Made by a program: the position numbers and the translations under genes. The notes under the pieces are model-generated. The model had not been told where the DNA came from and ran no database searches. It saw nothing but the letters and a program-made list of their open reading frames with translations. From contig JACWAM010000079.1 in the NCBI GenBank assembly GCA_014874265.1, positions 1 through 35,541 on the forward strand: a stretch of DNA of 35,541 nt, in the 5' to 3' direction. This document shows positions 10,530-34,220 of this stretch, piece by piece (position 1 is the first letter of the stretch; every line of letters starts with the position of its first letter). This DNA is from Thermoleophilia bacterium (lineage in GTDB: Bacteria; Actinomycetota; Thermoleophilia; BMS3ABIN01).

Positions 10530-11494
10530 CAGAAACCCTTTCGCCAGCACCGGCGCATGAAAATGCCGGCGACAAGCATGATGCCGGCGCTATAATACAT
10601 CAGATTGGCCGCCCGGCCGATATCGTCGCTGTCTGGATGCCGCTTGCCCTCGCCGATCAGCGGGCCTTCGACCAGTTTTCCCTTGTAGCTTCTGGAGCCG
10701 CCCAGACAAATGCCAAGAGCTCCCGCGAACGCGCTTTCGCAAACGCCCGCGTTTGGGCTCCGGTGACTGCGCGAGTCACGACGCCAGGTCGCGATGGCGG
10801 CGCCTGGGCGGCCTCCCACGGCCGGCCCCGCCAGGGCCGCCGCCAGACCGGTAAGGCGAGCGGGAATAAAACCCGCGGCGTCATCCAGCCTCGCCGCCGC
10901 CCAGCCAAAGTCTTTATAGTCACGGTCCCGATAGCCGATCATCGAGTCGAGCGTATTGATCATTTTATACGTCATTGCCAGTGGCGCTCCGCCGATCAGC
11001 CCGTAAAACACAGGGGCGATGACGCCGTCGTTTGAATTTTCCGCCACGCTCTCGATGGCGGCCCTGGTCACGCCGGCGCCGTCGAGTTCGGCGGTGTCGC
11101 GGCCTACCAAATGGGCGACCGCTGCGCGCCCGTCATCAATCCCTGAGGCGAGATCCCGCTGAACATCCCTGGCTGCCTGAAAAAGGGAGTGGCCGGCAAG
11201 CGCCAGCGACAGCAGCATCACCTCGGTTGCAGGACGGATCCGGTCCGGCACTGCCTGAAGCAGCTTTCGCACTGCCCAGAAAGTTCCCGCCGGCAAAGCG
11301 ATAGCCACCACCGACCCGGAGACGCGCTCGGCGACCGGTCCATGGCGCCGCCCCGGAACTGCTTGGTCGGCAAGCCCGATTAACTTGCCCATCCAGGAAA
11401 CCGGGTGCAGGGCCTCCGGAGGCTCTCCCATGAGCGCGTCAACTGTAAACGCGAGCAGGAGGCCCGCGCCGTTTCTGTCAAACCAGTCCGGCAA
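10529..11494 (-). CDS. cbiB: Adenosylcobinamide-phosphate synthase, integral membrane
   Basis: CbiB/CobD joins adenosylcobyrate to aminopropanol phosphate. The 321-residue protein is hydrophobic with several predicted membrane segments (for example around VVAIALPAGTFW, VMLLSLALAGHSL and IAPVFYGLIGGAPLAM). It has the family motifs GEPPEALHPVSWMGK, SVAENSNDGVIAPVFY, YKMINTLDSMIGY and FGWAAARLDD. The start is TTG, lying inside the last codons of cobQ (17-nt overlap). No better start is available before the conserved GEPP region except internal GTG codons. The C-terminus ends at the TGATG junction with cobO. Confidence 0.94.
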   Translation of the reverse strand: MPDWFDRNGAGLLLAFTVDALMGEPPEALHPVSWMGKLIGLADQAVPGRRHGPVAERVSGSVVAIALPAGTFWAVRKLLQAVPDRIRPATEVMLLSLALAGHSLFQAARDVQRDLASGIDDGRAAVAHLVGRDTAELDGAGVTRAAIESVAENSNDGVIAPVFYGLIGGAPLAMTYKMINTLDSMIGYRDRDYKDFGWAAARLDDAAGFIPARLTGLAAALAGPAVGGRPGAAIATWRRDSRSHRSPNAGVCESAFAGALGICLGGSRSYKGKLVEGPLIGEGKRHPDSDDIGRAANLMYYSAGIMLVAGIFMRRCWRKGF

Positions 11495-13034
11495 TCCGGT
11501 AGATCTCCTCGACGTCGATCGACTGCCTCAGCTCACGGGCCAGACGGTCGTACTCATGCTCCTTCAGTGCCCCCAGCCCGAGCAGCGGCATATCGGCGGG
11601 ACAGCCAAAATACGCCAGCAGCTCAGCCAGCACCTCGTCGCAGTCAAAAAAGCCATGGAAATATGTGCCCAGCACGAGGCCGTTTCTGCTGATGGCGCCG
11701 TCCGGACCTTTCCCGGTGTCCAGCAGCGGGCTGGCATCCGGACCCAGAGCCGTCCGGCCCATGTGGATTTCGTAACCGGATACCTTTGTTCCCTTTCGCA
11801 GCAACGGGCTTTCACCGGTAACGGCGCCGTGAACGCGGGTGGTTTCCTTCTCCGGCCCGAAGGTAGTCTCAACGTCAAGTAAACCAAGAGCCTTTGCCCC
11901 GCCGGCGCCCCCGTCAATTCCCTGCGGATCCAGGATCTGCCTGCCCAGCATCTGGTAGCCGCCACAGATGCCGATTACCGGCGTACCAATGTCGGCCTGC
12001 CTGATTATTTCCGCGGCCAGGCCGCTCGACCAGAGAAACCGAAGGTCCGGCAATGTGCTCTTTGTTCCCGGAATGATGATCAGGTCGGCGCCGGATATGC
12101 CGGCGGGATGTTCCACATATTCGCATGCAAATCCGGAGCAACCGCCAAGCGCGTCAAAATCGGTAAAATTCGAAATCCGGGGCAGGCGCACGATCCGGAC
12201 CTGGACCGTCCTGGCAGAGCCTGACCCCTCGTTGCGGCGCGCATCCGACGGCCACAGGGCGTTCCCCGGCGTCCTCGGGAAATCGCAGGGAGCCGGCCGC
12301 GGTCCGGACAGGGCCACGGAATCTTCTTCCTCGATCCTGAGGTCCTTGATGAAGGGAACCACGCCAAGCACCGGCCGCTCGCAGCGTGCTTCCAGGAAAT
12401 CGATCCCCGGCTCCAGGATGGAGCGGTCTCCCCGAAACTTGTTGATGATCAAACCTGCCACCCGCTCCCGCTCGCCCGGTTCCAGCAGCTCCATCGTCCC
12501 CACCAGCGACGCAAACACGCCGCCGCGCTCGATATCGCCGATAAGACAGACCGGGGCGTCGGCGATCTCGGCCACGGTCATGTTGGCAATGTCATGCCCG
12601 CGAAAATTGATCTCGGCCGGGCTGCCCGCGCCTTCAATGATAACGACCTGAAAGTCGCGGCGGAGCCGCTCCAGCGATTCCGAGACGGCGTCCAGCAGAC
12701 CAAGCTTGTACCCATGATAGTCAATCGCGGTCATCGTTCCCACTGGTTTTCCCTGAACAATCACTTGCGCGCCCGTATCCGTGGTCGGCTTCAGCAGCAC
12801 AGGGTTCATGTCCACGGTGGGATCGATGCCGGCTGCTTCGGCCTGGACGACCTGGGCTCGCCCCATTTCGCCGCCGTCGATGCTGATGAAAGAATTAAGC
12901 GACATGTTCTGTGATTTAAACGGCGCCACGGCAAAGCCGTCCTGCGCCATGATCCTGGCCAGGCCCGCCACCAGCAACGTCTTGCCGGCGTGAGACGCTG
13001 TTCCCTGGAGCATAATCGTTTTTGCCAACTTCAC
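11478..13034 (-). CDS. cobQ: Cobyric acid synthase, glutamine-hydrolysing
   Basis: CobQ/CbiP amidates the b, d, e and g side chains of adenosylcobyrinate a,c-diamide. The 518-residue protein has an N-terminal ATPase domain: MLQGTASHAGKT as P-loop, PFKSQNMSLNS, and EGAGSPAEINFRGHDIANM. The C-terminal glutaminase domain carries the nucleophile cysteine in IGICGGYQMLG and the histidine in YFHGFFD. An extra segment of roughly 25-30 residues (around SGPRPAPCDFPRTPG) precedes VRIVRLPRISNFTDFD, making the protein slightly longer than usual. The GTG start has AAAGGG 6 nt upstream; an ATG seven codons in is an alternative. The gap to cobU is 183 nt and contains a dispersed repeat. Confidence 0.95.
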   Translation of the reverse strand: MKLAKTIMLQGTASHAGKTLLVAGLARIMAQDGFAVAPFKSQNMSLNSFISIDGGEMGRAQVVQAEAAGIDPTVDMNPVLLKPTTDTGAQVIVQGKPVGTMTAIDYHGYKLGLLDAVSESLERLRRDFQVVIIEGAGSPAEINFRGHDIANMTVAEIADAPVCLIGDIERGGVFASLVGTMELLEPGERERVAGLIINKFRGDRSILEPGIDFLEARCERPVLGVVPFIKDLRIEEEDSVALSGPRPAPCDFPRTPGNALWPSDARRNEGSGSARTVQVRIVRLPRISNFTDFDALGGCSGFACEYVEHPAGISGADLIIIPGTKSTLPDLRFLWSSGLAAEIIRQADIGTPVIGICGGYQMLGRQILDPQGIDGGAGGAKALGLLDVETTFGPEKETTRVHGAVTGESPLLRKGTKVSGYEIHMGRTALGPDASPLLDTGKGPDGAISRNGLVLGTYFHGFFDCDEVLAELLAYFGCPADMPLLGLGALKEHEYDRLARELRQSIDVEEIYRIAGLV

Positions 13035-13217: not shown

Positions 13218-13751
13218 TTATTTTATTCGTACCGGTACGCCGGAGACGCAAAGGTAGACTTCATCCGCCAAGGCGGCCAGCTTCTGATTCGCGAGCCCGG
13301 CAACATCCCGGAAAAACCTCCCCAGGGGCGACTCGGGCACGATGCCCAATCCCACTTCGTTGCTGACCACGATCAGCTTTCCCGATCCGTTCTCAAGCCG
13401 GCAGGCCGCGGCCACCTGCTCGACCTCGTCGCTGAAGAGCTTCACCATGGCTCCTCCAGCCGCGATGTTCGGATCAGCCGTAAGCAGATTTGACAGGTAG
13501 ACAGTCAGGCAATCAACCAGGACGGTGCCACCCTCCTCCAGCGCCTGCTGGATGGCGCCCGGCAATCCCCTGGTTGCCTCAACCGTCTTCCACGACGGCG
13601 GCCGCCGCCGCCGGTGCTCGTCGATCCGTGCTTTCATCTCGGCGTCACCGGGCTCGGCCGTGGCGATATAGGTTACGCCGCCGCCTTCCAGCGCCAGTTT
13701 TTCGGCCAACGCGCTCTTGCCGCTCCGGGCGCCTCCCGTAATGAAAATCAT
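13218..13751 (-). CDS. cobU: Adenosylcobinamide kinase / adenosylcobinamide-phosphate guanylyltransferase
   Basis: CobU phosphorylates adenosylcobinamide and then adds GMP from GTP, activating it for nucleotide-loop attachment. The 177-residue protein has P-loop TGGARSGKS (5-13), YIATAEPGDAEM, RIDEHRRRRP with the guanylylated histidine about residue 46, LVDCLTVYLSNLL and VSNEVGLGIVPESPLGR. It is the first full gene after the riboswitch. No Shine-Dalgarno precedes its ATG. The start overlaps (ATGA) the stop of a nine-codon leader ORF, so translation may be coupled to that ORF. Confidence 0.95.
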   Translation of the reverse strand: MIFITGGARSGKSALAEKLALEGGGVTYIATAEPGDAEMKARIDEHRRRRPPSWKTVEATRGLPGAIQQALEEGGTVLVDCLTVYLSNLLTADPNIAAGGAMVKLFSDEVEQVAAACRLENGSGKLIVVSNEVGLGIVPESPLGRFFRDVAGLANQKLAALADEVYLCVSGVPVRIK

Positions 13752-13807: not shown

Positions 13808-13861
13808 CGGTAAATAAAAACCCTAGCCACTCCTTCCGCGAAGAGCTTCCTGACTAGAGCC

Positions 13862-14100
13862 CGCGGGCAGGTTTCCTGGCTCCTGGGTCTTTATGTTTCC
13901 ACGGCGCCTTCCCGAGCAAGAGCCAATCCGCAGATTTTTCACCGTCAGGATAGACTCTTAAGCCCAGTGGCCCGTTCCAACAGGAACGGAGCGCGAAAAC
14001 CCCAGTAACAGTGGCGGGACCGCGCCGGCTTTCAACCGGCTTCCCTCAAGCGCTCCGGGCGGCAAAAGCGCCCGCAGCGACCCGCAAGCTGATCCAAATA
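13862..14100 (-). promoter_or_regulatory. Adenosylcobalamin riboswitch
   Basis: Minus-strand leader of the cobalamin operon. It contains the conserved core GGGAAGCCGGTTGAAAGCCG running into GCGCGGTCCCGCCACTG (about 13998-14045), then GCCACTGGGCTTAAGAG, and the B12 box AGCCAGGAAACCTGC (13867-13881). The order and spacing match the cobalamin riboswitch class. Together with the promoter on one side and the terminator on the other it forms a complete transcription-attenuation leader. Exact 5' boundary is approximate. Confidence 0.95.
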
Positions 14101-20783: not shown

Positions 20784-20860
20784 TGGAGCCGGTGACAGGA
20801 TTCGAACCCGTGGCCTGCTGATTACAAATCAGCTGCTCTAGCCAACTGAGCTACACCGGC
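20784..20860 (-). tRNA. tRNA-Thr (anticodon TGT)
   Basis: Minus-strand cloverleaf with acceptor GCCGGTG/CACCGGC and a D-arm starting TAGCTCAGTTGG. The anticodon stem GCTGA/TCAGC surrounds loop TTTGTAA, whose centre TGT reads ACA (Thr). The T-arm is GGGTTCGAATCC. Discriminator is T and the CCA end is encoded (20784-20786). It lies just downstream of sigH, where tRNA genes often sit in related genomes. Confidence 0.96.
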
Positions 20861-21011: not shown

Positions 21012-21066
21012 AAGACAGAACTTTGAACTTTGAACTATTAACTTGGAACTTAGAACTTTGAACTTA
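21012..21066 (+). repeat. Heptanucleotide tract at the sigH 3' end
   Basis: Plus-strand units AACTTTG, AACTTTG, AACTATT, AACTTGG, AACTTAG, AACTTTG, AACTTAC, about seven in a row. The last one covers the sigH stop codon. This is the most regular copy of the family. It is in inverted orientation relative to the neighbouring gene compared with the other four. Confidence 0.85.
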
Positions 21067-21693
21067 CAGTATCACCTGCCGGCTCTGGAGATGAAGGTCA
21101 ACTTTTCGCTTGATGCGCTGCAGGGCGTTATCGACGCTCTTTGTGTCACAACCGAGTTGATCGGCAATCTGTTCGTATGAGCGGCCTTCCAGGTATAGCT
21201 TTAGCACCCGCGTCTCCAGCATGCTGAGCAGCCTGGTTAGGCAATCCTTAAGGCTGGCAACTTCTTCGGAGCTAATTACCTGATTTAGCGGATCCTGGAC
21301 CGATGATCCCGGAATAATGTCCCCCAGCGAGCATTCGCCGTCCTCGTGCGACGCGGGGGAATGGCTCAGCGAGAGGTAAGTGTTAAGCGGGGCGTGCTTC
21401 TGGCGCGAGGCTGTCTTGATCGCGGTGATGATCTGCCGGGTAATGCAAAGTTCGGCAAAACTGCGGAAGGAAGCCTCGCGGTCGTCGCGGTAGTCGCGGA
21501 TGGCCTTGGTCAGGCCAATCAAGCCCTCCTGCACCAGGTCATCCGTGTCTCCGCCCGACATAAAATATGAACTGGCCTTAAGCTTGACGAAACTTTGATA
21601 CTTGGAGACGATGACTTCGAAGGCCGCCAGTCTGCCTGATCGGGCCTGCTCAATCAGCCTTAAATCTTCGTCCTGTCCGGTTGAAGTTCTCAA
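21064..21693 (-). CDS. sigH: RNA polymerase sigma factor, SigH (sigma-30) family
   Basis: A sigma-70-family factor of the SigH type. Region 2 runs from FEVIVSKYQSFVKLKAS through GGDTDDLVQEGLIGLTKAIRD and FRSFAELCITRQIITAIK. Region 4 is LTRLLSMLETRVLKLYLEGR then SYEQIADQLGCDTKSVDNAL. The frame extends upstream to a TTG at 21777, but there the spacing of AAGGA is only 3 nt. The TTG at 21693 has GGAGGGAG five nt upstream and gives a 209-residue protein, the usual SigH length, so I use it. The gene follows yacP, as in Bacillota. The leader holds a cluster of overlapping palindromes (21798-21858). In relatives SigH controls stationary-phase or competence genes; its role here is unknown. Confidence 0.9.
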   Translation of the reverse strand: MRTSTGQDEDLRLIEQARSGRLAAFEVIVSKYQSFVKLKASSYFMSGGDTDDLVQEGLIGLTKAIRDYRDDREASFRSFAELCITRQIITAIKTASRQKHAPLNTYLSLSHSPASHEDGECSLGDIIPGSSVQDPLNQVISSEEVASLKDCLTRLLSMLETRVLKLYLEGRSYEQIADQLGCDTKSVDNALQRIKRKVDLHLQSRQVIL

Positions 21694-21797
21694 AGCATCT
21701 CCCTCCTCGCTCCGGCCGCCACACGCTGGCGGCGCCGGGTCGCGGTTCGTGGAAGGACTCTTCGCCGCATGTGCCAAAGTTCCTTCCGGACAGCCTT

Positions 21798-31134: not shown

Positions 31135-33628
<2,494 letters not shown>

Positions 33629-33755
33629 AATCTGTCACCTTTTGTTGGGAGAGCCCGCTGGGGGCGTCTCAAACATTTTGTTCCCGGCCGGCGATGGCTT
33701 GAAACAAGACGCTTAAGCCTTAATACGCCGAACGGCTGCCGCCGGTTATGAGCCT

Positions 33756-33777
33756 AAAAAAGCACCGCCCGGCGGTC
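33756..33777 (-). terminator. Intrinsic terminator upstream of clpC
   Basis: Minus-strand dyad ACCGC-CGG-GCGGT (33764-33776) followed by GCTTTTTT. It ends transcription 125 nt before clpC, so the unit upstream is separate or attenuated. Confidence 0.75.
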
Positions 33778-34081
33778 TTGAGGTTTTCGTTCGCCGGGCG
33801 CCGGCGCTTTCCTTTGATAGGCCAATCGGCCTGGCGCGGCTTCGGCTTGAGCGCCTCTGTCTATTCCCCCTGCTTGCAGGCATAAAGCACGCCATTCAGG
33901 GAAATTAGTGGTGTGTAAGACTGTCTGACGAGGTTTGCCGCCTGCCTTGAGCGTCGCTTGACACCGACCTCCAAAAACTGCGCCGGCTCAAAAAGCGCCG
34001 GCAGGAAATATTCGGTGGAATGCGGTTACGGCATCTCGCCGCCCGCTATGTTCGGGCAAAACGGCTCTCCCCCGGTTCAGT
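33756..34081 (-). ncRNA. Candidate structured small RNA or attenuated clpC leader
   Basis: About 325 nt bounded by a strong promoter and an intrinsic terminator on the minus strand, without a coding frame. In order it contains a GCCCG/CGGGC hairpin, a CGGC/GCCG hairpin, and a long arm closed by CACCGA/TCGGTG with an inner GCCGGC/GCCGGC stem. These are followed by a GCAGGC/GCCTGC pair enclosing TCCCTG/CAGGGGGA, then GGCC-GATT-GGCC, and the terminator stem. It does not match tmRNA, RNase P RNA, SRP RNA or a riboswitch that I recognise. It may be a stand-alone RNA, or a leader that controls read-through into clpC. Confidence 0.5.
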
Positions 34082-34087
34082 TGTATC

Positions 34088-34114
34088 ATTATAGCACATG
34101 CCTGCTACTGCCAA
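34088..34114 (-). promoter_or_regulatory. Extended -10 promoter for the candidate RNA/clpC leader
   Basis: Minus-strand TGCTATAAT (perfect -10 with TG extension, TATAAT at 34088-34093) and TTGGCA (34109-34114) 15 nt upstream. The spacing is short but the extended -10 compensates. Start near 34081. Confidence 0.7.
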
Positions 34115-34220
34115 AACCGGGGTAAAACCGGACTCTGGACCCTGGCCTTCGGCCATGGACGGGGCCCTCCGGCCAGTATGATAGTCTTTGCCTAACTGCC
34201 AAGTCGTGATGGGAGGCATC

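Follow-up and report, generated by a model that had tools for sequence, protein, structure and literature searches.

A family-wide candidate cis-regulatory leader upstream of the clpC-radA-disA operon in uncultured actinobacteria

The window analysed here, a 35,541-nucleotide stretch of a Thermoleophilia genome (contig JACWAM010000079.1), contains a clpC gene preceded by several hundred non-coding nucleotides, which raises the question of what this segment encodes and how it acts. clpC is the first gene in the order clpC-radA-disA-carD-ispD-ispF (the downstream products being RadA-like, DisA, CarD, IspD and IspF). A first-pass annotation, made from the letters alone, had described the segment as a single promoter-to-terminator unit without a reading frame, rich in nested hairpins and belonging to no known RNA class, and had proposed either an independent RNA or an attenuator that replaces control by CtsR. 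No long ORF lies on the clpC strand between promoter and clpC, as had been claimed. In front of clpC at this locus there is no ctsR or mcsAB, but a divergent nitroreductase gene on the plus strand. Control by CtsR and McsAB is a feature of the Firmicutes, and since actinobacteria ordinarily lack CtsR, the idea that something replaces it carries little weight here. The features of the region are collected in Table 1.

Table 1. Features between the upstream promoter and clpC, in window positions
Feature	Position	Strand	Details
P1 promoter with extended -10	34088..34118	-	extended -10 TGTGCTATAAT at 34098-34088; -35 region GGTTTTGGC at 34118-34110
GGGGGAG motif close to RNA 5′ end	34067..34073	-	Shine-Dalgarno-like, not followed by any conserved start codon or peptide
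T1 intrinsic-terminator-like hairpin	33972..34003	-	TGCCGGCGC-TTTTT-GAGCCGGCG, then CAGTTTTTG
Conserved core	33792..33857	-	CTCAAGCC..GGCCGATTGGCC..AAAGGAAAGCGC..GGCGAA; models R1 and R2, invariant alignment columns
T2 GC-rich hairpin with TTTTTT (the terminator of the first-pass annotation)	33756..33811	-	5′ arm overlaps core
P2 sigma-B-type promoter-like site	33680..33705	-	GTTTCA-N14-GGGAAC, between T2 and clpC
clpC Shine-Dalgarno AGGTGA	33635..33640	-	AGGTGA a few nucleotides ahead of ATG in all loci
clpC, 836 aa	31118..33628	-	Pfam Clp_N, AAA_2, ClpB_D2-small, UVR; first operon gene

The proposed promoter sequence was borne out. Its extended -10, TGCTATAAT, lies on the minus strand at 34096-34088, with a predicted transcript start at about 34081. 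Only 15 nt separate the TTGGCA -35 from the -10; P1 is therefore best read as an extended -10 promoter, and for the same reason a pattern scan that found the T2 terminator returned P1 only as a weak -35/-10 pair. Across the family a GGTTTAAGC-like -35 region and (T/A)TG(T/C)TATAAT recur in nearly all of 17 complete loci, and GGGA(G/A) stands at +9 to +13 in 17/17. A 5′ hairpin around GGGGAG, suggested by flank complementarity seen by eye, was rejected, as cognate flanks showed no pairing advantage over swapped ones (p 0.81). The terminator at the other end was also found, its TTTTTT at 33761-33756 being separated by 127 nt from the clpC ATG at 33628. The segment is nevertheless not one promoter-to-terminator unit, because T1 (hairpin 34003-33981 followed by GTTTTTG) lies within it; a second promoter-like site, P2, beyond T2, had also been overlooked.

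No Rfam 15 family matched the segment at gathering thresholds, in agreement with the claim that no known class fits, and no Rfam family recurred among 12 homologous loci. Permissive thresholds yielded nothing beyond a weak glmS candidate, which was discarded: its 16 bits fall short of the gathering score of 37, the match skips the catalytic core, and AGCGCC is not kept in relatives. 6S RNA was likewise dismissed, the genome's own copy (RF00013, 71.7 bits) being on another contig, as was CsrA as a binder of the GGA motifs, since its domain (PF02599) occurs in 0/19 family genomes.

Conservation among relatives had been named beforehand as a point on which the proposal could fall, and the region proved to be kept and always attached to clpC. 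When 40 related genomes were searched at the DNA level, short islands of conservation emerged; they came from seven loci, each of which leads into clpC. Those seven loci served to build R1, a covariance model of the 3′ core, which matched eight further family genomes (G007, G009, G010, G012, G014, G015, G016 and G017). As these eight were absent from the model, the result is an independent test, and tblastn placed every R1 family match directly upstream of clpC. G006 and G013 joined the set once the regions upstream of clpC were inspected. The contig of G018 ends too early for the full element, with P2 still visible, and no clpC start was found in G005 and G008. A refined model (R2) was built from 17 loci in 16 of the 19 family genomes. 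Since its family matches are training sequences, R2 is informative through what it does not match: it gave no match outside the family among 399 class and 397 phylum genomes (about 380 and 390 of them non-family), searched with stricter filters under which weak matches can be lost. Three weak R1 matches outside the family (E 0.007-0.009) were not beside clpC and disappeared with R2, and a pattern match on a viral contig (L018) fell within a coding frame and was set aside as chance. The clpC leaders of the inspected sister-family genomes are short and do not have the element, and neither R1 nor R2 found a second copy elsewhere in the genomes. One genome, G011, has two clpC loci (L011, G011:C175, and L017, G011:C212) with different leader versions, one of which resembles the G004 leader very closely and might be assembly contamination.

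In the 17 complete loci the order P1, GGGGAG, T1, core, (T2), P2 and Shine-Dalgarno is constant and on the clpC strand, and the leader measures 402-483 nt from -10 to ATG. A window-centred comparison with clade representatives showed similarity to peak over T1, with z 10.8, over the core, where z rises as high as 14.6, and over T2 (z 6.4), P2 (z about 4-5) and the Shine-Dalgarno, and to stay mostly at background in between. The upstream neighbour varies, being the nitroreductase gene in the window and a lysS-like C-terminus in L053 (by eye). The element is not a chance arrangement. Judged on these sequences it is a real candidate cis-regulatory leader of the clpC operon, family-wide in an uncultured actinobacterial family, uncatalogued and narrowly distributed.

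The two hairpins are kept to different degrees. T1 appears as GCCGGC/GCCGGC at +58 to +124 in most relatives; its U-run is strong in G000, G001, G002, G003, G006 and G010, weaker elsewhere and weakest in G007. T2 is present in genus g1 and some others and absent in g6, the largest sister genus, so the 3′ terminator is not conserved family-wide. The core, about 65 nt, is held together across the 17 loci by the islands UYAAGC, CCGA(U/A)(U/A), AAGGA and GGCGAA. Covarying nested hairpins found no support: with 17 sequences, covariation was not demonstrable by the swap test, by RNAalifold, whose core consensus structure has just five pairs and no compensatory change, or for the H1 helix, in which 73.8% of cells are paired against 70.7% in shuffles, not clearly above them. 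The core has no universal fold. The 331-nt RNA of the window folds at -133 kcal/mol, only moderately better than shuffles (z -2.5); the longer leader reaches z -4.2, and the relatives range between -0.2 and -2.5. A predicted fold of the nascent window RNA has the core pairing with and hiding the 5′ arm of T2, with the completed T2 10.9 kcal/mol more stable. Such exclusive pairing is clear in the window only, and the predicted folds of relatives differ. A TTAGG(G) motif also recurs in the clpC leaders L038-L055, often after hairpins, with 25 copies against about 9 expected in shuffles, the leaders themselves being related sequences.

Between the leader and clpC, GTTTYR-N14-GGGAA was aligned in 18/18 loci, G010 and G014 included, with an invariant 14-base spacing; in the window it is the sole site of its type. 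The published SigB-family consensus is GTTTAA-N12-14-GGG(A/T)A(A/T), with GTTTCG-N14-GGGCAT as a Streptomyces example (PMC8346170), and for B. subtilis SigB promoters a spacing of 14 bp appears optimal (PMC9847131). P2 fits this consensus, and a SigB-family sigma factor is encoded in the same genome. This genome, G000, has two SigB/F/G sigma factors over the cut-off, one of which adjoins an RsbW-like HATPase protein. The strict P2 motif has about 1-2 matches per genome, mostly clpC itself, and because it marks almost only this gene the site draws no support from a sigma regulon. At L093:1068-2646 of G000, a SigB/F/G sigma factor gene is flanked by RsbW-like genes on both sides, the upstream one very divergent, and by its gene content this cluster is likely a partner-switching stress module.

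From these features we infer the use of P1 and P2, termination at the hairpins, core/T2 switching and regulation in cis. P1, housekeeping in type, would give rise to an RNA of about 450 nt ahead of clpC; most such transcripts would end after about 105 nt at T1 or, in genomes that have it, after about 325 nt at T2. Expression of clpC from P1 would then be readthrough, set by the folding of the leader; in the window, pairing with the conserved core could hide the 5′ arm of T2. Under stress, P2 would allow the leader to be bypassed. The sequences contain the parts of an attenuating leader, namely a promoter, a terminator before the gene (T1 in most genomes, T2 in some), a common strand and linkage to clpC. 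We favour, with a little more than even confidence, a family-specific, attenuator-type cis-regulatory leader of the clpC-radA-disA operon with a housekeeping-type P1 and a P2 stress bypass, which probably decides the amount of ClpC protease. An attenuator of uniform design is not supported, because T2 is missing in g6 and the T1 U-run is weak in several genomes. More tentative is the suggestion that the leader represents a new class of signal-sensing RNA, a riboswitch or an attenuator that depends on a protein, which would set the basal expression of ClpC, RadA and DisA (the c-di-AMP synthase) and be bypassed through a stress sigma factor.

An operator region in DNA, a trans-acting RNA and a leader peptide are all less likely than a cis-acting leader. 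If control lay in the DNA, the core would be a cluster of sites at which transcription factors activate or repress P2, with hairpins that are incidental to GC-rich palindromes. Sequence conserved without demonstrated covariation suits this idea, as does the g6 core, which ends about 17 nt ahead of the P2 -35. However, core and P2 stand anywhere from about 17 to more than 100 nt apart, the parts behind P1 keep one order and one strand, and T1 is kept as a terminator-like unit of hairpin and U-run; we consider control in the DNA unlikely. That the element is RNA is probable, and this reading is favoured because the element lies downstream of a conserved promoter, in fixed order and strand, with a terminator-like T1 and the nascent fold predicted for the window.

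An RNA need not act in cis, and with its own promoter and terminators the segment could yield an independent trans-acting sRNA of about 105 nt (ending at T1) or 325 nt (ending at T2) with other mRNAs as targets, clpC being expressed from P2 alone; a promoter of the P2 type could drive clpC without the leader. Yet clpC is the fixed partner in every genome, whereas the gene on the other side varies, no second copy exists elsewhere in the genomes, and without a 3′ terminator in g6 such an RNA would continue into clpC. Because the element stays with clpC as its upstream neighbour changes, action in cis is most likely, and of the two roles first proposed, leader or attenuator is preferred and an independent RNA is improbable. 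Attenuation by ribosomes would make GGGGAG the Shine-Dalgarno of a short upstream ORF, and translation of this ORF would control T1. In its favour, the SD-like motif occurs at +9 to +13 in all loci, and several loci offer possible short ORFs (MVTTT, MVKTT, MVTTI, MRQL). The peptides of different genera, though, bear no relation to one another; in several loci no such ORF stands at a plausible distance, and a frameshift separates G009 and G012. With no conserved peptide, start or ORF near the leader 5′ end among the loci, this last explanation was rejected as highly improbable.

Clp protease operons are known to be regulated by the repressors CtsR and HspR, by activators (ClgR) and by stress sigma factors. 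The B. subtilis ctsR-mcsA-mcsB-clpC operon has sigma-A and sigma-B promoters, with CtsR as repressor. Like this Bacillus/Listeria arrangement, the present locus encodes a stress Clp ATPase, pairs a housekeeping promoter with one of stress type and has radA-disA downstream. Unlike it, the locus has no repressor genes in front, belongs to an actinobacterial host and carries a conserved non-coding leader of about 330 nt, with terminator hairpins, between its two promoters. With clp control in Corynebacterium, Streptomyces and Mycobacterium, through ClgR and stress sigma factors, it would share stress-responsive control of Clp genes and shares a SigB-family sigma factor with an RsbW-type partner, but it differs in its apparent RNA leader, and no ClgR palindrome was recognised by eye. 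T-box and ydaO c-di-AMP leaders offer the same succession of promoter, conserved core, mutually exclusive helices (predicted, in the window), terminator and downstream gene; here, in contrast, there is no Rfam match and no covariation-supported aptamer, and the terminator is not universal. In being conserved upstream of a gene, the element also resembles candidate structured RNAs of actinobacteria (msiK, mraW, ykkC-III; PMC2864571), a paper whose text does not mention 'clp' and describes no candidate upstream of clpC. A conserved leader RNA, if real, would be an extra layer of control on the Clp operon, coupled to DNA repair by RadA and c-di-AMP synthesis by DisA. Being precisely located, restricted to one family and laid out clearly around two promoters, the element is experimentally testable.

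Elsewhere in the window, a cobalamin riboswitch (RF00174, 81.9 bits) at 13849-14100 (-) has two genes downstream of it, one cobU-like (13218-13751) and the other for a cobB/cobQ-type amidotransferase (11478-13034). A tRNA-Thr (TGT) lies at 20784-20860 (-), near a gene for a sigma-like protein with Sigma70_r2 and r4 domains (21064-21777). At the contig end, 34915-35430 (-) encodes the C-terminal part of an HsdR-like type I restriction protein (T1RH-like_C).
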